Part shown: piece by piece, positions 9,134 to 32,728 of the stretch
How the letters are laid out: each line of letters opens with the position of its first letter
Numbering within the stretch: the stretch's first letter is position 1
Origin: Bacteroides sp.
GTDB lineage: Bacteria > Bacteroidota > Bacteroidia > Bacteroidales > Bacteroidaceae
Reading direction: 5' to 3'
Assembly (NCBI GenBank): GCA_021203405.1
Contig: JAJQBG010000111.1
Location: 1 to 35,431 of the forward strand
DNA: 35,431 nucleotides
Program-made: the position numbers and the translations under genes
The notes under the pieces: generated by a model
The model's input: only the letters and a program-made list of their open reading frames with translations
The model's database searches: none
What the model was told of the DNA's origin: nothing

Positions 9134-10125
9134 ATGAAGAGTAACGTGAATAGAGTATTGTTCCTGTTGTTAGCGGGAGTAACAGTGTTTTTCACTGCCT
9201 GTAAACAACCTGCCAGAGAGAGTGCCGAAACAGCTGAAAAAGAGTATTATGTATTTACTTCTTTCCATGAACCCGCTGACGAAGGGCTGCGTTTCCTTTA
9301 CAGCGAGGATGGTATAAAGTGGGATAGTATCCCGGGTATCTGGTTAAAACCGGAGTTGGGTAAACACCAGATCATAAGGGATCCCTCTATGGTACGTACA
9401 CCGGATGGAACCTATCACTTAGTATGGACTACTAGCTGGAAAGGCGATCTGGGTTTTGGGTACTCTTCTTCCAAAGACCTCATTAACTGGGAGCCGCAAC
9501 GGATGATCGAAGTAATGGCAAACGAACCGACTACGGTCAATGTATGGGCACCTGAGATCTATTATGATGATGAAACCGAAGAGTTTATGGTAGTATGGGC
9601 CTCCTGTGTTCCCGGGCGTTTTGAACGGGGAATAGAGGATGAAGATAATAACCATCGTCTTTATTATATTACTACTAAAGATTTTCAGACTATTTCGGAG
9701 ACCAAACTGTTTTATGATCCGGGCTTTAGTGTGATCGATGCTATTGTGGTAAAAAAGCTCCCAAAGATTACGTAATGGTGGTAAAGGATAATACCCGCCC
9801 CAACCGTAACCTGATGGTCGCTTTCTCTGATTCCTATACCGGACCTTATACGGCTCCTTCCGAGCCTTTTACGGATACTTTTGTAGAAGGGCCTTCCGTG
9901 GCGAAAGTGGGAAATGAATATTATATCTATTTCGATGCTTATCGGGAAATGATCTATGGTTCGGTTAGTACCACTGATTTTATTAACTTTACCGATCGTA
10001 CTCAGGAGGTTTCTATTCCTGTCGGGCATAAACACGGAACTGTTTCCAAAGCTCCGGCTTCTGTTCTGGAAAACCTGCTTAATCAAACTAAAGATAACCA
10101 ATCAACAAGATTAACGTTACAATGA
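9134..10125 (+). pseudogene. GH43-like five-bladed-propeller glycosidase lipoprotein; -1 A in 9751-9756
   Basis: Lipobox FTAC; EYYVFTSFHEPADEGLRFLYSEDGIKW..IIRDPSMVRTPDGTYHLVWTTSW..VWAPEIYYDD.. joined VVKK|APKDYVMVVKDNTRPNRNLMVAFS..FVEGPSVAKVGNEYYIYFDAY. Confidence 0.75.
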
Positions 10126-13100
10126 AATATTGTAGTAAACTAATTCTCCTTCTTGCCGCTACTCTGGGGTACACTGCTCCTGCCGTATCGCAGGAGGGAG
10201 TTCGTTATACAGGCAATGTATTATCGAACCCTGCTTATCACGACGGACAGCTGACACCGGTAGTAGGTGTTCATAACATACAACTTTTACGGGCCAACCG
10301 TGAGAACCCTACCGAAGCCAACGGTGACGGATGGACGTATAATCATCAATCTATGCTGGCCTACTGGAACGGAAAGTTCTATTACCAGTATCTTTCCGAT
10401 CCGGTGGATGAACATGTGCCACCCTCACAGACCCTGTTAATGACTTCGGAGGATGGATACAGTTGGACCCATCCGGATATTATTTTTCCCCCTTACAAAG
10501 TGCCGGACGGACATAGGAAACCTGGAAGAGAAGGTGTAACCAAAGACCTTTATACCATTATGCACCAACGGGTCGGTTTTTATGTTTCCGGATCGGGACG
10601 TCTGCTTACCATGGGGTATTACGGGATCGCTTTTGATAAGAAAGATGATCCGAACGATGGGAATGGGATCGGCCGTGTGATCCGGGAGATCTACCCCGAT
10701 GGTACCTACGGGCTGATCTATTTTATCTATTACAACCATGATTTTAACGAAAAGAATACCCTCTATCCCTATTATACCCGCAGTAAAGACAAAGGATTTG
10801 TGCAGGCCTGTAAAGAGATTTTAAACAATCCCCTTTATATGATGCAGTGGGTGGAAGAGGCCGACCGGGAAGATCCGCTGATCCCGCTCCACAAAAGTTA
10901 TAAAGCCTTTAACAACTATACCCTTCCGGACGGACGCCAGGCTGCTTTGTGGAAACATGCCCTTACCTCTATCAGTGTGGACGGAGGATATACCTGGTCT
11001 GAACCGGTAGAGCGTGTTCCCGGCTTTGTGAACAGCAATGCCAAGATCTGGGGCAACGCCTTACAGACGGTATGTATGCTACCGTATACAACCCTTCGGA
11101 GTTCCGCTGGCCGCTGGCTATTTCCCTCAGTAAAGATGGATTGGAATATACGACCCTGAACCTGACACATGGTGAGATTACTCCCATGCGTTACGGTGGG
11201 AACTATAAATCTTACGGACCCCAGTATCCGCGTGGTATCCTCGAAGGTAACGGAGTTCCGGAAGATGGGAACCTGTGGGTAACTTACAGTGTAGATAAAG
11301 AGGATATGTGGATCGCCCGGATACCGGTTCCGGTCCGGGATAAGGCTACCGCTCATGTAAATGATGATTTCTCAGCCTATACCAAGCTCGCTGATATGAC
11401 CGACTGGAATATCTATATGCCGGTAATGGCTCCTGTTACCCTCGAAAAACGGAATGGTAAAAGCTGGCTTACTCTGAGTGATACCGATCCGTTTGATTAT
11501 GCGAAAGTAGAACGTAAAATACCGGCTACCAAAGAGCTCACTGTATCCTTTGATCTGGTTGCCGGACAAAATGATAAAGGAACCCTTCAGATTGAATTCC
11601 TCTCAGAGAATGGGATTGCCTGTTCCCGCCTGGAATTCACTCCGGATGGAATATTCCGTGCCAAAGGCGGTTCCCGTTTCGGGAACCTGATAAAGTATGA
11701 ACCGGGTAAAGTATATCAGGTAGAAGCCCGTCTTTCTGTAAAGAACCGTAATATTGAGGTCTATATAGATGGGAAAAAGGCTGGTACCCGTATGTTGTAT
11801 GCACCTGTACCCTCTATTGAGCGGATTGTATTCCGCACCGGTGAGGTGAGGCAGTTCCCTACACCGGAAACACCTGCAGACCAGACGTATGATCTGCCGG
11901 ATGCGGGAAGAACAGATCCCCTCTCTTATTACAGCATTACTAATATTAAGAGTAGTTCGGCCGATGCCGATGCTACCGCTGCTATCTTGAAGTATGAAGA
12001 TTTTGCCCACTATGCGGAGTACTTTAACCGCATGGAGGATGAAAATATCATCCAGGCTATTCCCAATGCAGCCTCTTCGGAGTGGATGAAAGAGAATATT
12101 CCACTCTTTGAATGTCCGCAGGATAACTTTGAAGAGATGTACTACTTCCGCTGGTGGAACCTCCGGAAACATATCAAGGAGACCCCCGTAGGATATGCTA
12201 TGACTGAATTTCTGGTAGACCGTTCCTACGCGGATAAATACAACCTGATTGCCTGTGCGGTGGGGCATCATATTTACGAGAGCCGCTGGTTGCGTAACCG
12301 GAAGTATCTGGATCAGATCATCCATACCTGGTATCGGGGAAATGAAGGGGGGCCGATGGCTAAAATGTATAATTTCAGTTCCTGGAATATAGATGCTATC
12401 CTGAACCGCTATAAGGTAGATGGCAATAAAGAATTTCTGTTCGATATGGTCGGCGACCTGGAACGCGAGTATCACCATTGGGAAAGTACGCATCGTCATC
12501 CCAATGGACTCTATTGGCAGGGAGATGTACAGGATGGAATGGAAGAATCCATCAGTGGCGGTCGCCGCAAGCAGTATGCCCGTCCTACTATCAACAGCTA
12601 TATGTATGGCAATGCCCGTGCGCTTTCTACGATCGGTTTTCTGACGGGTAACGAAGGAGTCATGAGAGATTATGCACTCAAGGCCGATACCCTGAAGTCA
12701 CTGGTACAGGATAAACTCTGGAATCCCCGGCACGATTTCTTTGAAACACACCGGATAGACTCTTTTGCCAATGTACGGGAAGCGATCGGATATATTCCCT
12801 GGTACTTTAACCTGCCTGATGCCACTACATACGATATTGCCTGGGAGCAGATCACAGACGAAGATGGATTCTCTGCTCCTTACGGACACACCACCGCCGA
12901 GCGTCGTCATCCCGAATTCCGTTCTCATGGCGTAGGAAAATGTGAGTGGGACGGTGCTATCTGGCCTTTTGCCACTTCCCAGACACTAACAGCCATGGCA
13001 AACTTTTTGAATAATTATCCGCAGAGTATCACTTCAGACAGTGTTTATTTCCGTCAGATGGAACTTTATGTAGAATCGCAGTATCACCGGGGACGTCCCT

Positions 13101-13450
13101 ATATCGGAGAGTACCTGGACGAAGTAACCGGCTACTGGCTCAAAGGAGATCAGGAACGGAGTCGTTACTATAACCACTCTACATTCAATGACCTGATGAT
13201 TACCGGGCTGATGGGACTTCGTCCCCGCCTGGATGATACATTAGAGGTCAATCCGCTTGTCCCGGCTGACCGGTGGGATTGGTTCTGCCTGGACAATGTA
13301 CCTTATCACGGACATACTATCACGATCCTGTGGGATAAGGATGGAACCCGTTATCACCAGGGTAAGGGATTGCGTGTATATGTAGATGGTGTCCAGGTGG
13401 GACAGGCAGATACGATTACAAGAATTATCTGTCCCGATGCATTAAAGTGA
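10122..13450 (+). pseudogene. Multidomain glycosidase: N-terminal beta-propeller (GH145/PL27-like) + LamG-like domain + C-terminal alpha/alpha-toroid (MGH1/GH63-like); -1 G near 11069-11070
   Basis: Signal peptide; NHQSMLAYWNGKFYYQYLSDP..TSEDGYSWTHPDIIFPPYKVPDG.. joined NALQT|GMYATVYNPSEFRWPLAISLSKDG; then DDFSAYTKLADMTDWNIYMPVMAP.. and toroid motifs KMYNFSSWNIDAILNRYKVDGNKEFL..GLYWQGDVQDGMEESISGG..RPTINSYMYGNARALS..WDGAIWPFATSQTLTAM. Confidence 0.7.
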
Positions 13451-13534: not shown

Positions 13535-16304
13535 ATGAACAAGAGAAGAGCCATAGTCTGCTGCGCATTGTTTATCACCCTCTTATTACCGCTCAAAGCC
13601 ATTGAGGTAACCCGTCTTACCTGCGAAATGATGGAAGAGCCGCTGGCATTGGCCACTGCCACTCCTCGTTTCGGATGGCAGATGGAAGCCAAAGAGAACG
13701 GTGTATCCCAGTCTGCCTATGCCATTGAAGTATATGCAGGAGAGAACGGATTTTCCCGGTTAGTCTGGGAGTCCGGTAAAATCTCCTCTTCACAAAGCCA
13801 GCTCATACCCTACCAGGGAGAGAAACTGCTTCCCATACGACGGTATACCTGGCGCGTAAAGGTATGGGATGAAAAAGACCGGCCTTCTGCCTGGAGCCGG
13901 GAAAGCCAGTTCCGGATTGCTCCCGATGCCGCCTTTCTGGATGCCGATTGGATCGGTGCCATTGCCCACGAAGAGGCTAACCTGCCGGAAGGACGTCATT
14001 TTCAGGGCTCTGTCCTGAAAGAGCCGGAAGTAAAAGAAAAATGGGAAGCTGTGGATTCACTTTCCCGCAAAAGCATCTATCTCCGTAAAGGCTTTCAGGC
14101 AGAGAAGCAGATCCGGGAGGTAGTGGCCTATGTCTGTGGCCTGGGACACTATGAGTTCTCCCTCAATGGAAAGAAAGTAGGGGATAGTGAGTTTGCCCCT
14201 TTGTGGAGTGATTATGAGAAAACTGTCTACTACAATACCTATGATGTCACCTCTTACCTGAAAAAGGGAGAGAATATTGCCGGTGTACTGCTGGGTAATG
14301 GGTTCTATAATGTGCAGGGTGGACGGTATGTAAAACTGAAGATCAGTTTCGGGGCCCCTACACTCTTCTTTAAAATGATAGTGACCTATAACGACGGCAC
14401 CACGGAAGCGATCTGTTCCGGAAGCGACTGGAAGTATGATCTCAGTCCGATCACTTTCAACTGTATCTATGGGGGAGAAGAGTACGATGCCCGCCTGGAG
14501 CAAAAGGGATGGGATAAGGCTGGTTTTAGAGATATGAACTGGAAACCAGTCGTTGTACAAACAGCTCCTAAAGGAGTGTTAACTCCGCAGCAGGCTCCTC
14601 CGGTAAAGATTATGGAGTATTATAATATTCAGCAAGTGAACAAACTTACTGCGGAAGAGGTGGAAGCTGCTACTTTGTCTACCAAACGCACGGTAGATCC
14701 TTCGGCGGTAGCACTCGATATGGGACAAAATCTGGCAGGCTTTCCGCAGATCACCGTCAAAGGAAAGAAAGGACAGCAGGTAACGCTGTTGGTTGCTGAA
14801 TCACTAACAGACGAAGGAGCCGCCAATCAACGCCAGACCGGCCGTCAACATTATTACGTATATACCCTCAAAGGAGAGGGAACAGAGACCTGGCATCCGC
14901 GCTTCTCTTACTATGGGTTCCGGTATATCCAGGTAGAAGGGGCTGTCCTGAAAGGAGAGAAGAATCCGCAGGATCTGCCCGTTATCCAGGATCTCAAATC
15001 CTGCTTTATCTACAATTCAGCTCCGAAGATCGCTACCTTCGAATCTTCCAATCCTATATTTAACGCTGCCCATCGGCTGATCGAGAAAGCGGTCCGTAGC
15101 AATATGCAGTCTGTCTTTACCGATTGCCCCCACCGGGAAAAATTAGGATGGCTCGAACAGGGACACCTGAACGGACCCGGACTCTTTTACAATTACGATC
15201 TTACTACCTATGCACCGAAAGTGATGCAGGATATGGCTGATACCCAGCAACCCGATGGCTTCCTGCCTACCACAGCCCCCCCGGTATGTGGTATTCGAAG
15301 GACCGGGTATGGACGATTTTGCCGATTCGCCCGAGTGGGGAAGTTCCATTGTGATCCTGCCCTTTATGTATTACGAGAACTACGGAGATAACTCTTTAAT
15401 TGTAAATTACTACCGTAATATGCGCGGCTATGTGGATTACCTTACCTCCCGGGCAGATAACCACATCGTCTCTCACGGTCTGGGAGACTGGTATGACTAT
15501 GGCGATTTCAAAGCCGGTTTTTCAAAGAATACCCCCGTCCCCTTGGTGGCTACCACACATTATTACCTGGATATCTGCTATATGATCGAAGCGGCCCGTA
15601 TGGTAGGGAATGCCTGGGACGAAGCCTACTACACCCGTCTGGCTAAAGAGGTAAAAGAGGCTTTCAATGAAAAATTCTTTGATCCCGTTACCCGTCAGTA
15701 CGGAACGGCCAGCCAGGCCAGTAATGCATTACCGCTCTTTCTGGATCTGGTAGATCCTCAGTACCGGGAAGACGTACTTGGTAATCTGGTAAAAGATATT
15801 CAGGAACATGGCAACCGACTGACTACCGGAGATGTAGGGAACCGTTACCTGTTCCAGACACTGGCCCGTAATGGATTAAACGAACTTATGTATACCATGC
15901 ATAACCACGAGGAGACTCCCGGATACGGATTCCAGCTTAAGTTTGGAGCCACTACCCTGACAGAACAGTGGGACCCCCGGCAGGGATCATCCTGGAATCA
16001 CTTTATGATGGGGCAGATTGACAAGTGGTTCTTTGCTTCCCTGGCAGGTATTCAGTATGATGAAGAGCGTCCGGGATATCAACACTTTGTGATCCGTCCC
16101 GAGCCGGTAGGCGATCTTACCTATGTAAAAGCCACTCACGAATCGCTATATGGTACTATAAAAGTGGATTGGCAGCGGAAAAACGGTATCTTTACACTGA
16201 ATGTTTCCATTCCTGTTAATACATCCGCACAGGTATGGGTACCGGGCGAGAAAGAGCCCAGAGAGATCAGTAGCGGAGATTATACATTTACCACCAATTT
16301 ATAA
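13535..16304 (+). pseudogene. GH78 alpha-L-rhamnosidase; +1 C in 15276-15282
   Basis: VTRLTCEMMEEPLALATATPRFGWQMEAKENGVSQSAYAIEV..TDCPHREKLGWLEQGHLNGPGLFYNYDL..DGFLPTTAP|RYVVFEGPGMDDFADSPEWGSSIVILPF..GATTLTEQWDPRQGSSWNHFMMGQIDKWFF. Confidence 0.9.
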
Positions 16305-16309
16305 GAACG

Positions 16310-17643
16310 ATGAAACCTATTATTATCTATTGATAACAGCCTGCTGTTTTCCTGCTTTGCTAAAAGCGGAGCGGGTAGATATGAAGCAGGCCGGAGCAGT
16401 AACCGATGGAAATACGCTCAATACCCAACTGATCAACGAAACTATCCAGCGGCTTGCGGCCGATGGAGGAGGAACCTTGTTCTTTCCGGCCGGTACCTAC
16501 CTGACTGCTTCTATCCGGATGGAGAGTAATATAACCCTGGATTTGGAAGCCGGAGCTACATTACTCTTCTCCGATGATTTTGAGCAGTACCTTCCCTATG
16601 TAGAGATGCGTTACGAAGGAGTGATGATGAAGAGCTTTCAGCCACTTATCTATGCGGTAGATGCTGAGAACATCACGATCAAAGGAGAAGGAAAACTCGA
16701 CGGCCAGGGTAAAAGCTGGTGGATGGAGTTCTTCAAGGTGATGGTTGACCTGAAAGAGAACGGTGTACGGGATGTAAACCCTTATCAGGTACTATGGGAT
16801 AAAGAGAATGATACCAAAGCTATCTATGAGGAGACCAATTCCGATTATGTAGGTACATTGCAGCATCGGTTTTTCCGCCCTCCTTTTATCCATCCCATCC
16901 GTTGTAATACGGTACGCATAGAGGGAGTAACCATTGTGAACTCTCCCTTCTGGACCATCAATCCCGAATTCTGTGACAATGTATTTATAAAAGGAGTCAC
17001 CATTAACAACCCTCCTTCACCCAATACTGACGGTATCAATCCGGAGTCGTGTCGCAATGTACACATCAGTGACTGCCATATCTCGGTAGGAGATGATTGT
17101 ATCACCATTAAATCGGGTCGTGACCTGCAGGGGCGTAACATGGGAGCACCCTGCGAAAATATCACTATTACCAACTGTACCATGCTTGCCGGACACGGTG
17201 GTGTGGTTATTGGGAGTGAAATGAGCGGAAGCGTACGGAAGATCACCATCAGTAACTGTGTATTTGATGGTACCGACCGGGGTATCCGTCTGAAATCTAC
17301 CCGTGGACGCGGTGGAGTCGTGGAACAGATACGCGTAAATAATATTGTAATGAGCAATATCAAACAGGAAGCTATTGTGATGGATCTGATGTATAGCAAT
17401 ATGCCCGAAGAACCCTTCTCGGACCGTACCCCTGTATTCCGTAACATTCATATCTCCGACCTGACAGGCGTGAATGTAAAAACTCCCATTAAAATACGGG
17501 GATTGGACGAGTCGCCCATCCGGGATATAACCTTGCGGAATATTAATATTGAAAGCAGTGAGAAACCTTTTTTCCAGAATTACGAAAGGATCAGGCTCAC
17601 CGATGTAATTGTGAACGGAGAAGAAATAAAATTGGATAAATAA
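16310..17643 (+). CDS. GH28 polygalacturonase-like glycosidase; start region disrupted by an apparent -1 A (16313-16315)
   Basis: Restored signal peptide MKTYYYLLITACCFPALLKAERVDMKQAGAVTDG; NTDGINPESCRNVHISDCHISVGDDCITIKSG..GHGGVVIGSEMSG..RGIRLKSTRGRGG. Confidence 0.9.
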
Positions 17644-17654
17644 GAATAAGAAAA

Positions 17655-19630
17655 ATGAACCGTAAAAACCTATTGCTTACATTAGTTTTTTTGTGCGGTA
17701 GCAGTAGCGGCCTTGGCCCAGCCTCACCGCCAAACTTCCGACCATCAATACAGACGCTCCCTGAGTGATGTATTGAATCAGATCGAAGAGCGTTTCGGGG
17801 TTACCCTGAAATATGATATTGACACAGTCAATAAACCGGTCTTTTATGCCGATTTCCGGATCCGTCCCTATTTGGTAGAAGAGTCACTCACCAATGTACT
17901 GGCTCCCTTTGATTATAAGTTTGTCAAACAGGGGAAGGAGTCTATAAACTTAAATCTTATGAATATCCCCGTCGTACGGAAGAGGATGGAGAGAAAATGA
18001 TCGCTTACCTCAACTCACTCTATAGCGATAAAGCTTCCTGGGAAGCACGCAAAGAGTGCCTGCGTAAAGAAGTGCGTGAGAAACTGGGTATTGATGAACC
18101 CCTGGAACATGTAACAGGTAATAAACCCATTCTTTCCAAAATACGTAAATTCGACGGATATACCGTTCAGAATATTGCGTTGGAGACATTGCCCGGACTC
18201 TATGTCTGCGGTTCTATCTATACACCCACCAGTAAAGGCAAACATGCCCTCATTATGTGCCCGAACGGACACTTTGGCGACGGCTGTTACCGCAAAGACC
18301 AGCAGGAGCGTATGGGAACCCTGGCCCGTATGGGAGCCGTGTGCGTAAGCTACGACCTTTTCGGTTGGGGAGAATCACAGCTTCAGGTAGGAGCTACCGG
18401 ACACCGTTCAGTCATTGCCCACATTATCCAGGCCATGAACGGCATCCTGCTACTGGATTATATGATGACCCGCAAAGATATTGATCCCACACGTATTGGT
18501 GCCAACGGAGGTTCAGGTGGTGGCTCGCAGGTTGTATTGCTCACTGCTCTGGATGATCGCTTTACAGCGGCAGCCCCGGTAGTAAGCCTGGCCTCTCACT
18601 TTGATGGGGGCTGTCCCTGCGAAAGCGGTATGCCTGTCACCATGGCTTGTGGCGGGACCAATAACGCCGAACTGATGGCCATGTTCGCACCCCGTCCTGT
18701 ATTGATTGTTTCAGACGGAAAAGATTGGACCAGCAGTGTGCCGGAGCTGGAATTCCCCTACCTGCAACGTATCTACGGATTTTACGATGCAAAAGATAAA
18801 GTGACTAATGTACACCTGCCCGACGAAGGCCATGATTTTGGACCCAATAAACGGAATGCCGTTTACGACTTCTTTATCTCCGTATTCAACCTCGACCGCA
18901 GTAAACTTGATGAGAGCAAAGTAACCATCGAACCGGAATCAGCGCTGCTCAGTTTTGGCGACCGTGCCGAAGACCTTCCGGCCAATGCCATCCGTACCTT
19001 TGACAATGCTACTATCTATTTTGGTACCAAGGTAACTTCACACATGAAGTCCGATGCTGCCATTGAAAGAAAGGCGCAGGGCTGGGTCGCTTCCCTGGAA
19101 CTGAACGATGTCAAGAAAGAGGGCTATGTAGTGACCCTGATCTATAACCACCTGCGTGCCGTGCGCGACTGGCATAACAACCATCCTTTTACCTTAGTTC
19201 CGGAAGGAGTAAATCCTCACAACGGAGAGCCCCTTTCTCAGTTAGACCGGGAGATGATCATTGACTCTACCATGCCGGCCGAAGTACACAATAAACTTAT
19301 GAACGGTATGCGTAGGGTACTTACCGAAGAGCAGGTAGAAGCAATCCTGGATAAATACACCATTGGTAAAGTAGCTTTCACCCTGAAAGCTTATAAAGAG
19401 ATCGTTCCCGATATGACTCCTGAAGAAGAGGCATTTGTGGTGGAGAACCTCAAAACAGCCCGCGAAAAAGCCATTGATTATAAAATATGAATCAAATATC
19501 TGCTGTGTTCAAAATGTATAAGAACCGGATTGAACGCTATTTCAATGATAACGGACGTAACTGGAGAGATATGTACCGGGATTATAATGAAAAAATGAGG
19601 GCAGAAAAGAAGAAAAAAGAACAGCAATAA
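17655..19630 (+). pseudogene. STN-domain - alpha/beta hydrolase (acetyl-xylan-esterase-like) - DUF3826-like fusion; three apparent homopolymer indels (17686-17692 +1, 17952-17954 -1, 19482-19485 -1)
   Basis: MNRKNLLLTLVFCAVAVAALAQPHRQTSDHQYRRSLSDVLNQIEERFGVTLKYDID.. then KSYEYPRRTEEDGEKMIAYLNSLYSDKASWEARKECLRKEVREKLGID..GANGGSGGGSQVVLLTALD..DEGHDFGPNKR.. then RKAQGWVASLELNDVKKEGYVVTLIYNHLRAVRDWHNNH..VLTEEQVEAILDKYTIGKVAFTLKAYKEIVPDMTPEEEAFVVENLKTAREKAIDYKNMNQISAVFKMYKNRIERYFNDNGRNW. Confidence 0.75.
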
Positions 19631-20041: not shown

Positions 20042-21164
20042 ATGAAAGATACCTTTGATTTCTCCCTCCCGGACTCGCAGGCCACTGCGGTAGAACCGAT
20101 AAAACCCGAAAAATTTGACTTTGAATCTTATCAGGCTTATGAGCAGGGGTTACTTGCCCGATGCAAAAAATTCTGGGAAAGTGATAGTGGAGTACTGGTT
20201 CACCGCCGTATGCGGGTCCAGGAAGTATTTTCCTATGATTCCAAAGATATGGAAAAGTCACTGGGGTGGCAGTTAGGAGCCTTGTGGAAAAGTATGGCTT
20301 TCCAGGCTGATGTTCCTAACTTCCTGGAGCCGTGGTATGGTCTGGGAACTATTGCATCCGCCTTTGGCTTCGACTATGTATGGAGCGAAGGACAAGCCCC
20401 CGCTATAAACGGTCATTTCGATTCGGTAGAGCAGTTACTGGCTTATGAAGCAAAACCCGTAGAAAAGACCCCGATCGGAAAGCATACTCTCGATATGATC
20501 GATTACTTTCTGACAAAAACCCAGGGAAAACTTCCTCTCTCTTACTCCGATATACAATCCCCCTTGAATATTGTAGCGAATATTGTAGATTCCAACCAGT
20601 TCTATATGGACTTTATGCTCAATCCGGATCTCATTCACCAGGCTTTTGACCGTACTGCCGCTCTTTTTGTAGATTATATGAAGATACAGCAACGAATGAT
20701 CGGAGATGCTCTGGCAAAACCCGGACACGGGTTTGCCTCTTCCCGCTGTTTTGATGGAATGGGTATGAGTGACGATAATATTGTGATGCTCTCTAACGAC
20801 ATGTATAACGAATTTGCTGTTCCGGCCTTTATCAAAGCCTGCACTCCTTTTGGAGGGGGGCCACTCCTGTGGCGACTGGTCGGGAAAGAAAGAGGATATA
20901 GTGAAGATAGATGGGATCCGGATGGCAGATGGTGCCTTCTCCAAAGCAACCGATCCGAATGCCAATCCTACCGGTGGGTTTGCAGATACCTTTGCCGGTA
21001 CCGGAGTGGTACTGAATGCACGCATCGTCGGTACTCCGGATGTGGTAGAGGAGAAAGTACGTGAATTATGGAAACCCGGGATGAAACTGATCGTGGTTAC
21101 CTATTGCGATACACCGGAAGAACAGAGCAGGGTCTATCAGAAAATCCATGAGATATGCCGGTAA
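20042..21164 (+). pseudogene. Uroporphyrinogen decarboxylase family / MtaA-MtbA-like methyltransferase; +1 G in 20855-20860
   Basis: FESYQAYEQGLLARCKKFWESDSGVLVHRRMRVQEVF..FGFDYVWSEGQAPAINGHFDSVEQLL..PLSYSDIQSPLNIVANIVDSNQFYMDFMLNPDLIHQAFD..FIKACTPFGG|GHSCGDWSGKKEDIVKIDGI..WKPGMKLIVVTYCDTPEEQ; H-x-C and a distal C present. Confidence 0.75.
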
Positions 21165-22417
21165 CAGCTCCCTCTAAAGTGGGTAATTATAGATGGCGGG
21201 TGGTTGCACTGCTCTTTTTTGCCACTACGATCAATTACATTGACCGGCAGATACTGGGTATGTTAAAGCCTTTTATTGCCAGTGATTTTAATTTAACCGA
21301 ACTTAGTTACGGCTATATTGTCTCCGCCTTTCAGGCGGCTTATGCGGTCGGACTTCTGTTTGCCGGTAACCTGATCGACAAATACGGTACCCGCATCAGT
21401 TATGCAGTGGCTGTAGTGGTGTGGAGCCTGGCCGGATGTTTCCACGCAGCTGCCCGGAGTGCTTTCGGATTCGGGATTGCTCGCTTTTTCCTGGGATTGG
21501 GAGAGTCCGGGAACTTTCCTGCCGCTATTAAAGCCACAGCCGAATGGTTCCCCAAAAAAGAGCGGGCCCTGGCTACCGGGCTTTTTAATACCGGAGCCAA
21601 TATGGGAGCCATTATCGCTCCGATCATTGTTTCCGTGATAACTGTAGCCTGGGGATGGCGGTGGGCCTTTATTGTCACCGGATTGTTAGGCTTTGTCTGG
21701 GTCATCGCCTGGTTCGTATTGTACCGTTTACCCGCTCAGGTGAAGGGGCTCAGTCGGGCAGAGTATCGGTATATACACTCCGATAGCCTGCATCCGGAAG
21801 CAGAGAAGGCGGAAAAGAGTGTACCCTGGAAGGAACTGTTAAAACAGCGCACTACCGTTGGTATCTGCGGAGCCCGTTTTATCTCCGACTGGGTGTGGTG
21901 GTTCTTTCTCTTCTGGACGCCCGATTTTCTGCATAAAGTCTATGGAGTGGATATTACACAAATGGTATTGCCACTGATCATTATCTATGTTTTTTCCTCC
22001 GTTGGGGGAGTAGCAGGGGGAGCGCTCTCCTCTATGCTGATCAAAAGAGGCAAAGAGGTGAGTACCTCCCGTAAGATAGCGATGCTGGTCCTGGCTCTCT
22101 GTGTAGTACCGGTTATCCTTATCCCTTCCCTCTCTTCGCTCTGGCTCTCCGTCTGCCTGATCGGGGTCGCTGCTTTTGCTCATCAGGGGTGGGCATCCAA
22201 CGTATTTACCCTGGTCTCTGATTTCTACCCGAAGAATTCGGTTGGAAGTATGACGGGGCTGGCTGGTTTTGCAGGCTCCATGGGAGGGATCCTTTCCGGT
22301 ATCTTTGTGGGTAAGGTGCTGGATCTCACGGGAAGTTATTTCCTGATCTTTACCGTCGCGGGACTGGCTTATGTTATTGCATGGAGTGTTTTGCAATTGA
22401 CTTTGCCGAAGAAATAG
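21155..22417 (+). CDS. MFS transporter, ExuT-like (hexuronate:cation symporter family)
   Basis: WRVVALLFFATTINYIDRQILGMLKPFIASDFNLTELSYGYIVSAFQAAYAVGLLFAGNLIDKYGTR..RFFLGLGESGNFPAAIKATAEWFPKKERALATGLFNTGANMGAIIAP; starts 10 nt before the end of the methyltransferase ORF. Confidence 0.88.
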   Translation: MPVTAPSKVGNYRWRVVALLFFATTINYIDRQILGMLKPFIASDFNLTELSYGYIVSAFQAAYAVGLLFAGNLIDKYGTRISYAVAVVVWSLAGCFHAAARSAFGFGIARFFLGLGESGNFPAAIKATAEWFPKKERALATGLFNTGANMGAIIAPIIVSVITVAWGWRWAFIVTGLLGFVWVIAWFVLYRLPAQVKGLSRAEYRYIHSDSLHPEAEKAEKSVPWKELLKQRTTVGICGARFISDWVWWFFLFWTPDFLHKVYGVDITQMVLPLIIIYVFSSVGGVAGGALSSMLIKRGKEVSTSRKIAMLVLALCVVPVILIPSLSSLWLSVCLIGVAAFAHQGWASNVFTLVSDFYPKNSVGSMTGLAGFAGSMGGILSGIFVGKVLDLTGSYFLIFTVAGLAYVIAWSVLQLTLPKK

Positions 22418-22428
22418 ATAATTCCTGC

Positions 22429-22454
22429 AGATCAACCATACTCCTGATCTTTTT
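22429..22454. terminator. Weak candidate terminator between convergent genes
   Basis: AGATCA-N10-TGATCT followed by TTTT between the MFS stop and the HTCS stop; 6-bp stem only. Confidence 0.25.
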
Positions 22455-25400
22455 ACGGAGTGTACTGAGTCGGCAGCACCCCGAACATCTTTTTGAACGA
22501 TTTCGTAAAATAGCTGGGCGTATTGAATCCTACCGTATAGGCTACCTCTACTACACTCATTTTGCCTTCTTTAAGCAGTTCGGCTGCCTTTTTCAACCGG
22601 ACACTCTTTACAAACTCCGTCGGCGTATTCCCGGTGATGGATTGCAGTTTCCGGTAAAGGTTTACCCGGCTCATACCTACCTCCCGGCTTAACTCTTCAA
22701 TCGAATATTCGGAATTCCCCATATTCTTTTCAATTAGGGCCAGGGTACGTTTCAGGAACTTCTCATCCACATAAGAGATCGTGATCTGTTCCGGCTGTAT
22801 CTCTATCTCCTTCTCAAAAAGCTGCCGGTGTTGTGATTGTTGCTCCAGCAGGTTCCGGATGCGCAGTAACAAAATATCCCACTGAAAAGGTTTGGCAATA
22901 TAGGCATCTGCTCCCTCCTTATAACCCTGCCGTTCGTTCTCGAAGGTATTATTAGCCGTCAGTAAGATCACCGGAATGTGAGAGATAGAGAGGTTGTTCT
23001 TAATTCTTCTGCACAACTCAAACCCGCTTACCTGCGGCATCATCAGGTCGGTAATAATAAGATCCGGCTCTTTTTCCAGCGCCACCCGTTCTCCTTCTTC
23101 TCCATCCGCCGCTTCATACAGGATATAATAACGGCTGAGTTCCTTTTTCAGGTAGTTGCGGAACTCCTGGTTATCCTCCACGATCAATATCTTTTTCTTA
23201 GACTCCTCTTCCGGTTCGGCCGTGCTTTCCATAGGCAGCTCTCCGGTTGTGGACGAGGCCTCCAGGTCCATGGGAATATAGACCGAAAAAACAGAGCCCT
23301 TTTCCGGTTCGCTCTCTACCCGTACCTCTCCCTGGTGCATCTCCACATACTCTTTGACCAGGTTCAGCCCGATACCGCTTCCTTTGCGTCCGTCTCCCTC
23401 TTCCACCTGTTTAAAGTGTTCAAAGATCGTAGCAAGTTTTTCCCGGGGAATCCCTTTACCGGTATCTTCTACCTTTATCACTGCGTACGCTCTCTTCTCT
23501 TTTATCTCCCGGGTCAAAGAAACCCGTATGGTTCCGTTCTCTCCGGTAAATTTAATGGCATTTGAGAGCAGGTTGTGAAGGATCTTCCGCAGTTTATCGT
23601 GGTCAAAGCATAGTTCACAACCGGTAAGTTGTGTCTCATAACTGAATTTCAGGCTCTTCTCCGTGGTAATAAGCCTGAAGTTCTCATAAATGGAGTGCAG
23701 AAAGAGGTGAATATCTCCCCAGCTCAGGAAGAGCACTTCTCCTTTCATCTCCACCCTTCTGAAGTCCAACAGCTGGTTCACCAGCTCTAACAGTCCCCGC
23801 GCATTCCGATGGATAGAGGTTAGCTGTTCATTGATCTCCGGGTCTCTTACTCTTTTTAGTAGGGTCTCCAACGGAGCAATGACTAATGTAAGAGGGGTAC
23901 GGAGCTCGTGGCTGACATTGGTAAAGAAGCGATATTTGATCTGTGCCATCTTCTCCTCCATAGCCACCCGCTGTTTCTCTTTCTGGTATCCGATATACCG
24001 GAAGAGCACCCACAAACCTACCACCAGTAAGGTGAGGTTATACAACGTATACGCCCACCAGGTCTCATACCAGGCAGGCTGGCGGTCAATAAGAATGGTC
24101 ATACTCTCATCACTCCAACTGCCGTTCTCGTCCGTTGCCTTGATCTCTACCTCATAGCTGCCTTTCGAAAGTTCCGTCAGATAGATACTATTCTGGTTCT
24201 CCGGCAGGTAGTTCCAGGGAGCACCTTTCCTTTTATGCCGGAAGGCATACCGTATATTCTCCCTGGCAACCGGAGTGAAAGTAGAAAGGAAGAGCTCCAG
24301 GTTACGCTCCTCCGGTTGCAATATAATATGATGAGGCTTATAACCGGATAACCGGGATTCGCCGTTTACCCGGATCGCTATCAGTACCACAGGCGAAGTT
24401 TGACTCTCTGTCCGGAGCGGGATAAGAGGCGGAAATACCAAAACTCCTCCTGTTCCGCCAATGTGCATTTTTCCCTCTTCATCTTCGTAAAGTGACTGGA
24501 AATTATGCATGGATACATCCGGGTCGCTGCTGCGGATGATATAGAGGGATTCATTTTCCGGATGGTAAACTGTTATTTTCTGATCACAAAGTATCCATAT
24601 ATTTCCCTGGCTGTCGGCCCTGACGGCAGAGATGGCATTTCCGTCCAGACCGCACTCCGTGGTTTTTGCTGTAAAACGGTCGTCCCCCGGATCGTAACAA
24701 TACAAGCTTCCCGCCTGGGTGCCTGTCCACACCCTGCCATCGGGGGCTACCGTTACATTCCGGAAATTTTCTCCGGTATGGTGCCGGACCTTCCGGCTAT
24801 CTGCAAACAGTACCAGGAAACCATTCGACTCCGTGCCTATATATACATTCCCATCCGCAGAAGGGGCCACTGCGTTCACAATACCCGTTTTCTCCCACGC
24901 TGTCTCCAGCTCTTCACGCTCCGGATTGTATTTTAATAGATGGTAAGTGGTCCCTACCCACAAATTTCCCGGAAGATCTTCGTGAAGCGTGCGGATGCGC
25001 TCTCCGCTTCGGGTGGGTATCGTGGCAAGGGGCGTCTCTTGCAGACGGTTCTCCTTTTCGTGAATAAATAAGATCGTGGATGTATTCTCAGACTCGATCA
25101 ACGGGCTTCCTGTTACCTGCACAGAACGTACAGTGGAGGTATTTGCCGCCGTAAATATTCCCTCCCGGCTCCGGGCTTTTTCGAAGAAGGCCAACAACCG
25201 CCGGTTATTGGATATAAGGACACTGTTGTTGTCCGGATGCGAAAAGCATAAACCTGTATATTTCTGCCACATCCAGTAATGCCCATTTTCGTAGGCCAGG
25301 TGTTGCGGAGCGGCCGGAAAACCCGTTCTTTCTTCTATGGCAGGCAACAGATGGCGAAAAGATTCCTGGGACTGAAAAGAGAGAATAAAAGAGTAGGGAT

Positions 25401-26402
25401 AGCTTCCCGATACCCATATATGCCCCGACCTGTCACTCATTACATCATTCGGTAACTTTTTTCCGGGCGGCAGGAAAGCTGCTGTCTCTATAGGTTGTAG
25501 CTCATCCTGTTCATCCCTTTTATAGGCATATAAATTCTCCCGTGTAGCGACCCAGATATAATTCAGGGTACTATCCTGTGCAATACCTTTTACCCGTTGT
25601 GTTAATATATCCTTGCTGGTAAGGGAAAAACGTGCATTCGAGGAGTTGGTCGAAGATTGCGCTACAAACATCTCCTCCGGCTTTTCCGTCCCGGGATCAA
25701 AACGCACCACTCCTTTGTCCCAGGTACCGATCCAGTAGAGGGGAGCAGTGCAATCCTCTATTATACAGGTAGGACATTCCGGAAAGGGCCACGGATAGGG
25801 AATAAAAGAGTCTGTCTGTTTATCATACCGGGTAAGACCTCCCCGCCATTGGATCACCCATACATTTTTCCGGCTATCCTCATAGACCTGGTAAACGGTT
25901 TTGGGAGTTCCCTGCCACTCACTGATATAAGCTCCCAGCTTCTCTTCTTCCAGGTTATAGCGTTGCAGAAAGTGTTGCGTAGATATCCAGACCGTACCAT
26001 CCGACAGGGCATCAATGGTGCTGATCACCCAGCCCTTTATTTCGTCGTCATCCAGCAGTCTGATCCGGTAATCTTTTTTTTATCTAAGATATAAGCCCCC
26101 GTTTGGTGCCGAACCAGATGCGTTTCAGGCTATCTTCCGTTATGCAGGTAACGCTGTTACTCTCGATCCGTGTGGGATGGGTAAAGTCGGCCCTAAATAT
26201 CTCCACGGTATATCCATCGTCCCGGCACAATCCTCCGCCTTCCGTACCATACCACATATACCCTTCCGAATCCTGAAAAGTACAGACGATCTCTCCCACC
26301 GGTAACTGATTTTGAGTAGGCAGCCCCGATAGCGTCATGTTCTGTGCGGTTACGCTGCAAAGCAATAGGCAGAGTGTGAACAGCAGCCCCGGTTTTTTTC
26401 AT
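22453..26402 (-). pseudogene. Hybrid two-component system regulator (HTCS): sensor propeller + Y_Y_Y + HisKA/HATPase + REC + AraC HTH; apparent indels at 26074-26081, 26096-26100 and 26393-26399
   Basis: MKKPGLLFTLCLLLCSVTAQNMTLSGLPTQNQLPVGEIVCTFQDSEGYMWYGTEGGGLCRDDG..; FFTNVSHELRTPLTLVIAPLETLLKR; GKGIPREKLATIFEHFKQVEEGDGRKGSGIGLNLVKEYV; ILIVEDNQEF..DLIITDLMMPQVSGFELC; EVAYTVGFNTPSYFTKSFKKMFGVLPTQY. Confidence 0.92.
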
Positions 26403-26670: not shown

Positions 26671-29600
26671 ATGAGACATACAAAACTACTTATTGCGGCT
26701 TTTCTGGCAGTTTACCTGCTTACCTCTCTCCCCCTGCTGGCTCTTGACTTTAAAGAGAACAGACGGGCAAGATACAATTTTAACAGTGAATGGCTCCTTT
26801 ATATCGGCGACCTGCCCGGAGCCGGACAGGCACGTTTTGATGACAAGTCGTGGGAAATGGTCACACTTCCCAGGGCTTATAACGAAGACGAAGCCTTCCG
26901 GGTAGCCATTGACGACCATACCGGGGGTATCGTCTGGTACCGTAAATACTTCAGGCTACCCGGTAAAGATAGCGGAAAAAAGGTTTTCCTGGAATTTGAA
27001 GGGATCCGTTTCGGCGGTGAGTTCTATGTGAACGGACAAAAGATCGGCATCCACGAGAACGGGGTCATGGCCTTCGGGTTTGACATCACCGACTATGTGA
27101 ACTTTGGAGGCAAAGAGAATGTCATTGCCATTCGCATTGGCAACTCCTGGGATTATAAAGAGAGCACCACAGATAGCCGTTACCAGTGGAACGATAAAAA
27201 TTTCAACGCCAATTACGGAGGTATTCCCAAAAATGTATACCTCCATGTTACCGATAAGTTATACCAGACACTCCCGCTCTATACTAACTTACAAACTACC
27301 GGTACCTATATCTATGCCCGGCAGATCCATATTTCTGAAGCCAGTGCTACCATCCATGCCGAATCAGAGGTGAGGAACGAATATCGTACCGAAAAAGAGT
27401 TCTGTTTTGAAGTTCAGATCGAAGATATGGAGGGTAACATCGTAAAAAAGATCGACGGGCCTCTGACCCGGCTGCAACCCGGTGAGACCGAAATAGTGAA
27501 AGCACAGGGTAAGATGGAGAATATCCACTTCTGGAGCTGGGGCTACGGTTATCTCTACAATGTATATACCACCCTGTATGTCAATAACAAACCGGTCGAT
27601 GTGGTAAAGACCCGCACCGGCTTCCGGAAAACCGCTTTCCGGGACGGTCTGGTTTACCTCAATGACCGGGTGATCCAGCTGAAAGGATATGCCCAGCGTA
27701 CCAGCAACGAGTGGCCTGCTGTGGGAATGTCGGTTCCTGCCTGGCTTAGTGATTACAGCAACCGGCTTATGGTAGAGAGTAACGGTAACCTAGTGCGCTG
27801 GATGCATGTAGCTCCCTGGAAACAGGATGTAGAGTCGTGCGATAGGGTAGGGCTTATCCAGGCGATGCCTGCCGGCGATGCCGAGAGAGATGCCAAGGGC
27901 CGCCAGTGGGAACAACGGGTAGAACTGATGCGCGATGCCATTATCTATAACCGTAACAACCCCAGTATTCTTTTTTATGAATCAGGTAATCAGGGAGTCA
28001 GTGAAGAACACATGGCCGAAATGAAAGCACTCCGTGATAAATACGATCCTTACGGAGGACGTGCTGCCGGTTCACGCGAAATGCTGGATAGTTATATAGC
28101 CGAATATGGCGGAGAGATGCTCTATATCAATAAAAGCGCCCGCCATCCTATGTGGGCTATGGAGTATTGCCGGGACGAAGCCCTTCGTAAATACTGGGAT
28201 GAATATTCTTATCCTTATCACAAGGATGGCGAAGGGAACGCCGCCTATAAATCAACGGTGACCAATACTACCCATACACAGGTTGATGCCAGTCCTTATA
28301 ACCGTAACCAGGACTCTTTTGCGGTGGAGACCGTCATCCGTTGGAACGACTATTTCCGGCTACGTCCCGGTACCGGGGCAGAGTCAGTTCGGGAGGTGTT
28401 AATATTATCTTCTCCGATAGCAATACTCATTTCCGCGGAGTAGAAAATTACCGCCGTAGTGGTGAAGTGGATGCCATGCGCATTCCCAAAGATGCCTTCT
28501 ACGCTCATCAGGTAATATGGGACGGTTGGGTCGATATTGAGAATGACCGTACCCATATTGTTGGTCACTGGAACTATACCCCTGAAGTAAAGAAAGATAT
28601 CTATGTTATCTCTTCCGGTGAACAGGTAGAACTCTTTATCAACGGGAAGTCACAAGGAATGGGAGAGAGAAGCCATACCTTCCTCTTTACCTTTAAAGAT
28701 ATCCGGTGGGAGGCCGGTAAAATAGAAGCTATCAGCTACGATGCTTCGAAAAAAAGAACTCAGCAGACACGAAATAAAGACAGCCGGCGATCCGGCCGCG
28801 ATCCGTCTTACCCTGATGCAGGCCCCTGATGGTTTCAAAGCCGATGGTGCCGATCTGGTATTGGTAGAGGTAGAAGTCGTAGATAAAGAGGGTATCCGCC
28901 ATCCGCTGGCTAACGACCTGATCTCTTTTGAACTCACCGGCCCGGCCGAGTGGCGGGGAGGGATTGCCCAGGGTCCCGATAATTATATTCTTTCTACCGA
29001 TCTTCCCGTAGAGTGTGGAGTGAACCGTGCTTTTATCCGCTCTACCACTAAAAGCGGTAAAGTTACCCTGAAGGCTACTGCCGCGGGACTTTCTGAAGCT
29101 ACCCTAACTTTCAACGCTATCCCTTTTAAACAGAATAATGGCCTTTCCACCTATATTAGCGGTGATTATCAACCCAGTCACCTTTCACGGGGTGCAACAC
29201 CGGCCACACCCGCTTTCAAACCCTCCCGCAGGAACGTAAAGATAGTAGATGCTATGGCCGGAGCCCACGAAGAGCAGGCACGGACCAGTTTTGATGATAA
29301 CGAACGTACTACCTGGGAGAACGACGGCAGGTTGAGAACCGGCTGGATCATTTACGAACTGGAGCGGGATGCTGAGGTGGCTGAGATCGATCTGAAACTC
29401 TCCGGCTGGCGCCGGCGCAGTTACCCGATCCGGATCTTTGTAGACGATAAAGAGGTCTATACAGGCAATACCCCGCAGAGCCTGGGTTATATATCCATTC
29501 CCATAACTCCTACCCAGGGACGTTTCGTCAAAATACAACTCAGCGGAGCCAGCTCCGAGGAGGATGCTTTCGGCGGACTGGTAGAGGTAACCGGTAAGAT

Positions 29601-29688
29601 CGAGTCGGATGTAGTAGGGAACAAAAACACCGATGCCAAAGGCCAGCTGGCTATTGTTGAAATAGATATACACGAAGCGATCCGATAG
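26671..29688 (+). pseudogene. GH2 family glycosidase paralogue 1 (DUF4982-like and F5/8C-like C-terminal parts); apparent -1 G at 28375-28378 and +1 A at 28749-28755
   Basis: YNFNSEWLLYIGDLPGAGQARFDDKSWEMVTLPRAYNEDEAFRV..FLEFEGIRFGGEFYVNGQKIGIHENGVMAFGFDITDYV..NNPSILFYESGNQGVSEEHMAEMKALRDKYDPYGGRAAGSREM..MWAMEYCRDEALRKYWDEYSYPYHKDG; continuous homology to the downstream GH2 after joining three frames. Confidence 0.85.
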
Positions 29689-29752
29689 AACTGTCACAAC
29701 ACAAACACATTTACATACAGTCAAACATCTTTTCATGACTAAGATCCTCACA

Positions 29753-32728
29753 ATGAAAAAACAATTGCTTGCGATTTTCTGTAGCTGTGCACTTGCTTTG
29801 CAGGTGCCGGCTGCAGCCGATTGTTCCGGTAGAGAAACATACAATTTCAACTCCGGATGGAAACTATTTGTCGGAGACCCCGAAGGAGCCGCAGGCGAAA
29901 GTTTTGCCGATGAAACCTGGAAGCCGGTTACTCTTCCCCATTCGTGGAACGAAGATGACGCTTTCCGCCTTGCGATCAATAAAATACCCAAAGAAGTAGC
30001 CTGGTATCGTAAAACCTTTCAAATACCGGCCTCAGCTACCGGGAAAAAAATCTTTCTGGAGTTTGAAGGGCTGCGCCAGGCCGGTACCGTCTATCTCAAC
30101 GGTCAGGAGATGATCCTCCACGAGAACGGAGTGATGGCCTTCGGGATCGATATAACGGGAGTCGTACGTTTCGGCGAAGAAGAAAATACGATCACCATAA
30201 GGACCGATAACGGCAGCCGCTATACGGAAAAGGCGACCGGAACAGGCTTTCAGTGGAACCACAGCGTCTTCTATGTGAGTTACGGCGGGCTTAATAAATC
30301 GGTAACCCTCCATATCTTACCTCCGGTATACCAGACCCTTCCTCTTTACACCAACCTGAAAACAACCGGAGTCTATATATATGCTTCTCAGATCGATATA
30401 CCGACCGCATCCGCTGTTATCCATGCGGAATCAGAAGTGAAGAACGAAACTTCTGCCCCGGCAACCCTTGAATATACCGTAGAGATCACCGACCTGGATG
30501 ATAAACCGGTGGTGGAGTTCCCGGGTGACCGTGTCACCCTTAACCCCGGTGATACGAAAACACTTACAGCTTCCCGGAGAGTAGACAACCTCCACTTCTG
30601 GAGTTGGGGGTACGGCTATCTGTATAATGTAAAGACTATTCTGAAAGAGAATGGCAAACCCATTGATGAAGTAGTTACCCGTACAGGCTTCCGTAAGACA
30701 GAATTTGGCAACGGCGTGGTTAAACTCAACGACCGGGTGATCCACCTGAAGGGGTATGCCCAGTGCTCTACCAACGAGTGGCCCGCTATCGGTAGCAGTG
30801 TCCCTGCCTGGCTGAGCGACTACTCCAACCGGTTGGTCGTAGAGGGCAACGGGAATTTTATACGCTGGATGCACGTAACTCCCTGGAAACAGGATATAGA
30901 GTCCTGCGACCGGGTGGGACTTATCCATGTAATGCCTGCCGGCGATTCCGAAAAAGATGTAGAGGGCCGGCAATGGGAACACCGGCTGGAACTGATGCGC
31001 GATGCCATTATTTACAACCGCAACCACCCCGGTATCCTCTTCTATGAATGTGGTAACAAAGGAATTTCCTATGAACACATGGCAGAGATGAAAGCCCTTC
31101 GTGACCGGTACGATCCATCCGGAGGACGGGCTATCGGCTCCCGTGAGATGTTGGATGTGGAGAATAGTGAGTGGGGAGGAGAGATGCTCTATGTTAATCA
31201 TAGTGCCAGGCAACCCATATGGGCCAATGAATATATGCGCGACGAAGGGCTACGCAAATACTGGGATGAGTACTCTTATCCCTACCACCAGGAAGGAGAT
31301 GGGCCTCCTTACCGGAATGAACCCGCACCCTCCTATAACCGTAATCAGGATGGGCTGGCCTTAGAGAATATTCGTCGTTGGTACGATTATTACGAAGCCC
31401 GTCCCGGTACCGGACGCCGGGTCAATGCCGGAGGTGCCAAGATCATCTTCTCCGACAGCAATACCCACATGCGGGGGGAGGAGAACTATCGCCGCAGTGG
31501 AGTGGTCGATGCCATGCGTATCCCCAAAGATGGGTGTGGAGTCCATAAAGTGATGTGGGACGGTTGGGTAGATACCGAACAGTATGAAACTTACATAATC
31601 GGTCACTGGAATTATCCTGATCCTACCGTTAAAGATATGTATGTTGTCTCCGCAGCCCCTGCCGTTAAGTTGCTGCTCAATGGCAAAGCGGTGGGAGAAG
31701 CAGAGCGGGAAGCCCACTTCCTGCATACTTTTAAAGATATTGCGTTTGAACCCGGCACCTTGAAAGCCATCAGTTACGATGAAGCAGGAAAAGAGGCAAG
31801 TTCCTATACGTTAGAGACTGCCGGAGAACCGGTAGCTCTCCGGATGGTTGCTATGACCGCACCGGATGGAATGCTGGCCGACGGACACGATCTGGCACTG
31901 ATCGAATTTGAAGTAGTAGATGCCCGGGGACGCCGCTGTCCCTTAGCAAATGACCTTGTAAAATTCGAACTGACGGGACCCGCTGAGTGGCGGGGAGGAA
32001 TTGCCCAGGGCCCGGATAACTATATTCTTTCCACCGAGCTTCCGGTAGAGTGTGGTATCAACAGAGCCTTTGTTCGTTCTGCTCCGCAGGCAGGCACTAT
32101 TACCCTGAAAGCTACTTCCGGGAAACTTACTCCGGCTATCCTTACCCTTCAGACCAGGCCGGTAACGGTAGAAGCAGGACTCAGTAAAACTTTCCAGGCA
32201 GCCTCTCTGCCCGTTTATCTGGAGAAAGGGCCTACACCCGCTACACCTTCTTATAAGGTGAATCGCTATGCCGTAGAAGTAGGATCGGTCAAGGCCGGTT
32301 CCAATCAGGAAGAGGCGATAAAGAGCTACGATGACAACGAAATGACAGAGTGGAAAAACGATGGAAAGCTCTCTACGGCCTGGATCAGCTATACCCTTGA
32401 AAGAGAAGCCTCCCTTTCTGAGATCTGTGTCAAACTCTCCGGTTGGAAAACCACCAGCTATCCCCTGGAGGTCTTTGTGGAGGGGAAAAAGGTATGGAGT
32501 GGTCATACGGAACAGAACCTGGGCTATTATACCATCCGGTTTGAACCGGTAAAAGGTAAGAATGTAATGATCCGGCTTACCGGAAAGAGCAAAGAAGAAG
32601 ATGCTTTTAAAAGTATTGTGGAAGTAGACCGTAAAGTAGACCTGGATGTATTCCGGAACAACGCTGACCCGGATGCCAGAGGTTTATTAAGGATCGTGGA
32701 GATCGAGTTTTATGAAAAAGCAAAGTAA
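29753..32728 (+). CDS. GH2 family glycosidase paralogue 2 (intact)
   Basis: MKKQLLAIFCSCALALQVPAAADCSGRETYNFNSGWKLFVGDPEG..HPGILFYECGNKGISYEHMAEM..PIWANEYMRDEGLRKYWDEYSYPYHQEG; start at the internal ATG 29753 preferred over 29735. Confidence 0.9.
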   Translation: MKKQLLAIFCSCALALQVPAAADCSGRETYNFNSGWKLFVGDPEGAAGESFADETWKPVTLPHSWNEDDAFRLAINKIPKEVAWYRKTFQIPASATGKKIFLEFEGLRQAGTVYLNGQEMILHENGVMAFGIDITGVVRFGEEENTITIRTDNGSRYTEKATGTGFQWNHSVFYVSYGGLNKSVTLHILPPVYQTLPLYTNLKTTGVYIYASQIDIPTASAVIHAESEVKNETSAPATLEYTVEITDLDDKPVVEFPGDRVTLNPGDTKTLTASRRVDNLHFWSWGYGYLYNVKTILKENGKPIDEVVTRTGFRKTEFGNGVVKLNDRVIHLKGYAQCSTNEWPAIGSSVPAWLSDYSNRLVVEGNGNFIRWMHVTPWKQDIESCDRVGLIHVMPAGDSEKDVEGRQWEHRLELMRDAIIYNRNHPGILFYECGNKGISYEHMAEMKALRDRYDPSGGRAIGSREMLDVENSEWGGEMLYVNHSARQPIWANEYMRDEGLRKYWDEYSYPYHQEGDGPPYRNEPAPSYNRNQDGLALENIRRWYDYYEARPGTGRRVNAGGAKIIFSDSNTHMRGEENYRRSGVVDAMRIPKDGCGVHKVMWDGWVDTEQYETYIIGHWNYPDPTVKDMYVVSAAPAVKLLLNGKAVGEAEREAHFLHTFKDIAFEPGTLKAISYDEAGKEASSYTLETAGEPVALRMVAMTAPDGMLADGHDLALIEFEVVDARGRRCPLANDLVKFELTGPAEWRGGIAQGPDNYILSTELPVECGINRAFVRSAPQAGTITLKATSGKLTPAILTLQTRPVTVEAGLSKTFQAASLPVYLEKGPTPATPSYKVNRYAVEVGSVKAGSNQEEAIKSYDDNEMTEWKNDGKLSTAWISYTLEREASLSEICVKLSGWKTTSYPLEVFVEGKKVWSGHTEQNLGYYTIRFEPVKGKNVMIRLTGKSKEEDAFKSIVEVDRKVDLDVFRNNADPDARGLLRIVEIEFYEKAK

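Follow-up and report, generated by a model that had tools for sequence, protein, structure and literature searches.

A UroD-family gene in a Bacteroidales RG-II locus may belong to a corrinoid pathway for the demethylation of plant sugars

What does a UroD-superfamily methyltransferase, encoded in overlap with a transporter, contribute to a locus of glycoside hydrolases? Methyl ethers are frequent on the sugars of plant cell walls, where they obstruct ordinary sugar catabolism, and the original prediction for this locus was that the methyltransferase might process an O-methylated uronate, or a related methyl donor, brought in by the transporter. The window considered here, that is the whole stretch of 35,431 nucleotides that was analysed, is contig C55 of a 4.0-Mb Bacteroidales genome in 427 contigs, estimated to be about 84% complete. 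We put the chance barely above even that the UroD protein, here called c0, serves a corrinoid system acting on RG-II side chains as its substrate-side methyltransferase, with 4-O-methyl-glucuronate as its most likely substrate. The closest relative of the locus, L033, lies in a MAG named Bacteroides sp. and encodes a UroD protein that is 92% identical. The features of the window that bear on the question are the following.

10122 to 13450, plus strand: BT_1020-like RG-II enzyme in two split ORFs (PF24067 beta-propeller, then PF22585/PF22422)
13535 to 16304, plus strand: alpha-L-rhamnosidase, GH78-type, in two overlapping ORFs (PF08531/PF05592/PF17389/PF17390 across 13535-15391 and 15255-16304)
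16201 to 17643, plus strand: GH28 polygalacturonase/alpha-galacturonidase in BT1018-like position (PF00295; PDB 3jur, exo-polygalacturonosidase)
17997 to 19490, plus strand: BT1017-type pectin methylesterase with DUF3826 domain (PF12875), frame disturbed at 17929 and 19481 by indels relative to L033
20042 to 21164, plus strand: c0, UroD-superfamily (MtaA-like) methyltransferase (Pfam URO-D, 31 bits), frame broken near 20859
20855 to 20860, plus strand: G run directly before the His-x-Cys codons, with 5 bases missing relative to L033 (pairwise alignment)
21155 to 22417, plus strand: c1, MFS transporter of the ACS/galactonate-hexuronate type (PF07690, E 3.5e-62), overlapping c0 by 10 nt
22453 to 26028, minus strand: hybrid two-component regulator (Reg_prop/Y_Y_Y/HisKA/AraC; Pfam)
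26671 to 29688, plus strand: GH2 enzyme in several split ORFs (Pfam)
29735 to 32728, plus strand: GH2 enzyme (Pfam)
32930 to 33883, plus strand: SASA-type carbohydrate esterase (PF03629)

Its gene content identifies the window as a locus for RG-II degradation, with a BT_1020-like protein encoded alongside BT1017- and BT1018-like genes; BT1017 (DUF3826) and BT1018 are RG-II enzymes (PMC7939467). This setting replaces the generic arabinogalactan or xylan context that had been proposed, and the neighbour that had been called GH145-like is the BT_1020-like gene at 10122-13450. Upstream of c0 lie the DUF3826 esterase, the GH28 gene, the GH78-type rhamnosidase and the BT_1020-like gene, and in L033 the order GH28, esterase, UroD, MFS is the same as in the window, with regulator-homologous DNA after the MFS gene. 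The RG-II-specific enzymes of the genome comprise the BT_1020-like protein, the DUF3826 esterase and GH28 in the window, and a GH138 enzyme on contig C404. Small indels split many genes in the window (7187-32728) and on contigs C30 and C404, including GH78, BT_1020-like, GH43-like, GH2, GH31 and GH141 genes.

The c0 gene is itself interrupted. ORFs 20042-21064 and 20814-21164, when joined across the frame, give a single UroD-family protein of 373 aa. The interruption had been ascribed to one additional G, which restores the frame arithmetic, yet alignment with the intact, 92%-identical L033 gene shows a 5-base deletion at about 20859, and the single-base history was set aside. The deletion also costs two residues directly ahead of HSC, in a segment that reads FGG-x-x-FHSCG(D/N)W in relatives. 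Single-base indels are found elsewhere in the assembly, in the esterase of the window (17929 and 19481, relative to L033) and in genes of contig C30 (relative to L114). Because such indels split other genes of the assembly, sequencing error and decay are indistinguishable for the c0 break; an artefact of sequencing or assembly may lie behind it, as may gene decay, and this strain's copy may be non-functional.

The joined protein carries the GHSCGDW motif and, 79 residues after the motif cysteine, the distal VVTYC that had been described for it. In 80 relatives of c0, which a single scan of GTDB genomes turned up in Bacteroidota, Planctomycetota, Bacillota and others, His276 and Cys278 (L033 numbering) are invariant, whereas the distal Cys357 is retained in 64 and replaced by S in 10, A in 4 and Q in 2. 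At the sequence level, the His-x-Cys half of the expected His-x-Cys...Cys layout is present in 80/80 relatives and the distal half in 64/80. The invariant His-x-Cys would probably hold a metal. A C-terminal cysteine, Cys374 (HEIC; L033:3655-4779), is C in 78/80 relatives, more often than the distal Cys, and sits in the part of c0 that overlaps the MFS start.

The assignment of c0 to an MtaA-like rather than a HemE-like type is supported by both models and fold. All 47 relatives scanned matched a methylcobalamin:CoM methyltransferase model, every one of them below cut-off, and none of the 47 matched HemE models at E<=0.01. The scores against curated CoM methyltransferase models were 29 bits (cut-off 244) and 23 bits (cut-off 235), below both, and no PDB entry was matched when c0 was searched by sequence profile. 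When an AlphaFold2 model of the intact L033 protein (mean pLDDT 95.3) was searched with Foldseek, MtaA ranked top (4ay8 and 4ay7; E 1e-10, TM 0.69 to target) and HemE structures ranked lower.

The transporter gives an indication of what c0 might act on. Its start lies inside the methyltransferase gene, as originally noted, and of 28 relatives in which an MFS gene comes directly downstream, 11 show the identical 10-nt overlap, which supports translational coupling. Homologous MFS genes are present at 39/80 c0 loci; in other phyla TRAP, ABC or SSF transporters take their place beside c0. The proposed likeness to hexuronate importers stands at the superfamily level (hexuronate-type anion symporter) but does not extend to a specific model, the best NCBIfam match being TIGR00893 (D-galactonate transporter) at 278 bits, short of its cut-off of 395. 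UxaE (tagaturonate epimerase), an enzyme of the uronate pathway, neighbours c0 at four loci. Taken together, an anion symporter and neighbouring UxaE genes point to a methylated uronate as the substrate of c0, and from these gene associations 4-O-methyl-glucuronate appears most likely. In loci of Bacillota and Atribacteria (L074, L105, L109, L090) the UroD paralogues c0, c31 and c2 are clustered with TRAP or ABC transporters, and no glycoside hydrolases were seen near them.

The window holds no corrinoid gene, in agreement with the original prediction that neither corrinoid protein nor activator is encoded there, and any corrinoid link in this strain is therefore in trans. A search of the genome, which had been suggested as a check, recovered a corrinoid protein on contig C30 (L113), together with GH31, UroD354, an SSF symporter, a GH141-like enzyme, UroD337 and a MetH-activation-domain protein. 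The corrinoid protein has 214 aa (C30:6346-6990; PF02607+PF02310) and the MetH-activation-domain protein 234 aa (PF02965). A RamA-like activator, another of the suggested checks, was looked for without success: the classical RamA/RACo family (PF14574) was not found in this genome, which has the PF02965 protein instead, and PF14574 (RACo) is present in 7/21 c0 carriers. UroD337 has 4ay7 (MtaA) as its best PDB match (E 4e-16) and His/Cys/Cys invariant in nine sequences; by sequence it is closer to MtaA than c0 is. UroD354 is a distant homologue of c0, with HLDG where c0 has HxCG. The genome offers c0, c2 and UroD354 plus one UroD337 as candidates for the substrate and acceptor sides, in roles that we infer. 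A non-MetH corrinoid frame, as judged by frame length, is present in 24/25 c0 carriers, G439 being the exception, and no dedicated corrinoid protein is obvious in carriers G439 and G243.

Gene order in relatives joins these components. In L040 and L043, c0, the MFS gene, the corrinoid protein gene and UroD337 are consecutive. A Paludibacter contig (L120+L096) begins with GH31, UroD354, SSF, corrinoid, UroD337, PF02965 protein and GH141 genes and continues with GH78-like, GH127, c2, c0, GH138, GH2 and GH2. In four genomes of the same genus that lack c0, a single protein of roughly 600 aa combines UroD354 with a corrinoid domain, which is direct evidence for a UroD protein of the set working with corrinoid. 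The fusion gene follows GH141 and GH31 (L130:5763-9849, L131:6437-10510, L132:117-4208, L133:2034-6087); SSF, MetH-activation protein and UroD337 genes are also present where the contig goes on, and L130 and L131 have a transketolase-like gene in the vicinity. A corrinoid gene beside every c0 was considered and rejected, one being found in the flanks examined at only 3/80 loci, so that linkage is mostly in trans. The further UroD protein c2 is encoded at 28/80 c0 loci and in 8/8 tested carrier genomes including this one, and in L127 its gene adjoins a corrinoid gene near GH138. The c0 carrier L119 has a cluster of MtaB, corrinoid protein, homocysteine S-methyltransferase and MetH activation domain (L119:7820-11508), which could form a route from methanol to methionine in a pectin degrader.

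A second line of evidence ties c0 to RG-II. A large neighbour of c0 and c2, at 11/80 loci, matches the PDB entry for BPa0997 with more than 1000 bits, and we take this BPa0997-type neighbour to be of family GH138. A GH67/GH115-like identity, suggested for the 907-aa neighbour by a weak Pfam match, was ruled out in favour of the BPa0997/GH138 type. BT0997 is the RG-II chain-A alpha-galacturonidase, which cuts chain-A GalA (PMC7939467). Among 393 Bacteroidales genomes, 8 with c0 and 385 without, GH138 is present in 7/8 and 10/385, respectively (p=5.6e-10), UroD337 in 6/8 and 17/385 (p=5.3e-7), and GH138 co-occurs with UroD337 (p=8e-10), all p-values being uncorrected for shared ancestry. With this GH138 association and the UxaE genes flanking c0 at four loci, co-occurrence with glycan and uronate genes is non-random; the computable tests proposed for the original prediction, on likeness to HemE and on randomness of co-occurrence, have been run, and the idea was not refuted. 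GH138 also has a corrinoid gene no farther than about 10 kb away in G254, G335, G143, G055 and G099. Because many c0 loci (in Alistipes, Planctomycetota and Bacillota) are without adjacent RG-II genes, RG-II is perhaps one source of substrate among others. At L126:90-5301 the genome's own GH138 gene stands together with genes for an SSF transporter and a protein of the DHDPS family; this may be a further set for the catabolism of RG-II acid sugars.

From the family, fold and conserved motif of c0, its coupling to the transporter, the corrinoid parts with their operon linkage, the UroD354 fusion and the GH138 statistics, we infer a scheme that extends to reaction, substrate, metal, partner contacts and acceptor. 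RG-II enzymes would free methyl-etherified sugars, and the co-translated anion symporter would bring in a methylated uronate, for which 4-O-methyl-glucuronate is the likeliest candidate. The c0 protein, with a metal probably on its His-x-Cys, would transfer the methyl group to the corrinoid protein whose gene lies outside the window on contig C30, from which the MtaA-like UroD337 would hand it on to an acceptor. The MetH-activation-domain protein, or RACo in some carriers, would maintain the active corrinoid, and the freed uronate would enter ordinary uronate catabolism. In such a scheme c0, c2 and UroD354 would be several substrate-side demethylases with presumably divided substrates, served by a common corrinoid protein, UroD337 and reactivator. 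For UroD354 the GH31 neighbour points to 2-O-methyl-xylose. Over its full length, the L115 copy of the C30-type GH31 closely resembles PDB 5f7c (1538 bits), presumably BT0339 of B. thetaiotaomicron. The assignment of GH31 is uncertain because B. thetaiotaomicron, if 5f7c is indeed BT0339, has this enzyme yet is reported to leave 2-O-Me-Xyl-Fuc uncut (PMC7939467). According to PMC12168206 and its reference B93, RG-II chain A has 2-O-methyl-xylose and RG-II includes methyl-etherified uronic acids.

Two of the alternatives keep the corrinoid chemistry but change the substrate. That c0 acts on a neutral methyl sugar rather than a uronate is unlikely, if still worth serious consideration: RG-II contains several methylated sugars, and where c0, c2 and UroD354, three distinct UroD proteins, share a cluster, the substrates must be split among them. 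Against it, the transporter dedicated to c0 belongs to the anion-symporter type, its place is elsewhere taken or shared by TRAP systems and UxaE, and the partner of GH31 is UroD354, not c0; these features favour a uronate for c0. We hold it to be clearly less probable that the methyl groups moved by c0 come from sulfur or selenium compounds, or from methanol set free by the pectin methylesterase, as in type 1 mlp clusters, its siting in pectin loci then reflecting the handling of methanol or methyl-thiol. In those clusters UroD-family Mlps are accompanied by Ram and a corrinoid protein, and their proposed role is in S/Se methyl metabolism (PMC10418091); a methanol MtaB-corrinoid-homocysteine methyltransferase cluster is found in the c0 carrier L119. 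Methanol in L119, however, is handled by MtaB and not by c0, whose dedicated transporters are for anions or sugars and whose distribution follows GH138, and sugars are unmentioned in the mlp paper (PMC10418091).

Other readings would remove c0 from methyl transfer to corrinoid altogether. If c0 were an isomerase, epimerase or lyase of uronates, metal-dependent and built on the UroD fold, this would account for the scarcity of adjacent corrinoid genes (3/80 loci), for the two carriers, G439 and G243, apparently without a dedicated corrinoid protein, and for the UxaE neighbours at four loci. This reading fits poorly with the operons and genomes that c0 shares with the corrinoid protein and UroD337, and with corrinoid methyltransferases as its nearest models and folds, and we rate it as just as improbable as the handling of methanol or methyl-thiol. 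An ordinary haem-pathway HemE, to which the Pfam URO-D match might point, has next to no probability given the lack of HemE-model matches among the 47 relatives, the top-ranking MtaA fold and the invariant His-x-Cys, and was ruled out on the first two of these.

Beyond this one locus, we see a somewhat better than even chance that a corrinoid pathway of c0, c2, UroD354 and UroD337 in Bacteroidota and other phyla strips methyl ethers from plant sugars, such as the 4-O-methyl-glucuronate and 2-O-methyl-xylose of RG-II. If so, the use of methylated plant-wall sugars by anaerobic gut bacteria would be explained, vitamin B12 would have a new use in the gut, dietary fibre would be a one-carbon source, and sugars would be opened for which we found no oxygen-independent demethylation described. 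The sole sugar-ether demethylation known to us is that of an aerobic P450 on 6-O-methyl-galactose.

We found no published equivalent of the c0 system in the open-access literature, and nothing there on corrinoid demethylation of sugar ethers or on corrinoid in connection with RG-II. The RG-II loci of B. thetaiotaomicron share with those described here the BT1017-, BT1018- and BT_1020-like genes (in the window) and GH138, GH141 and GH2 (in relatives), whereas the UroD and corrinoid genes are additions in the present loci. MtaA and MtbA (PDB 4ay7/4ay8) resemble c0 in fold (TM 0.69), in His-x-Cys and usually the distal Cys, and in providing its best sub-threshold models, but c0 shares only about 15% identity with them, is bacterial and is coupled to an anion transporter, and coenzyme M would be an unexpected acceptor in Bacteroidales. 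The phenolic O-demethylases of acetogens (OdmB/VdmB; OdmA, OdmB and OdmC are named in PMC10418091) are by description similar in combining a UroD-superfamily O-demethylase with a corrinoid protein and an activator; their systems also include a second methyltransferase. They differ in acting on aryl ethers where a sugar methyl ether is proposed for c0, in that c0 stands in glycan loci, and in that RACo is absent from the present genome, which encodes a MetH-activation-domain protein. Type 1 mlp clusters (Kountz and Balskus, PMC10418091) likewise unite, by description, several UroD proteins with a corrinoid protein, but they have Ram/RACE and are assigned to methyl-selenium/sulfur (PMC10418091), whereas the c0 set has glycoside hydrolases and sugar transporters in a genome without PF14574. 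The mlp clusters and the aryl O-demethylases are the nearest known systems, from which the c0 set differs in its partners and proposed substrates.
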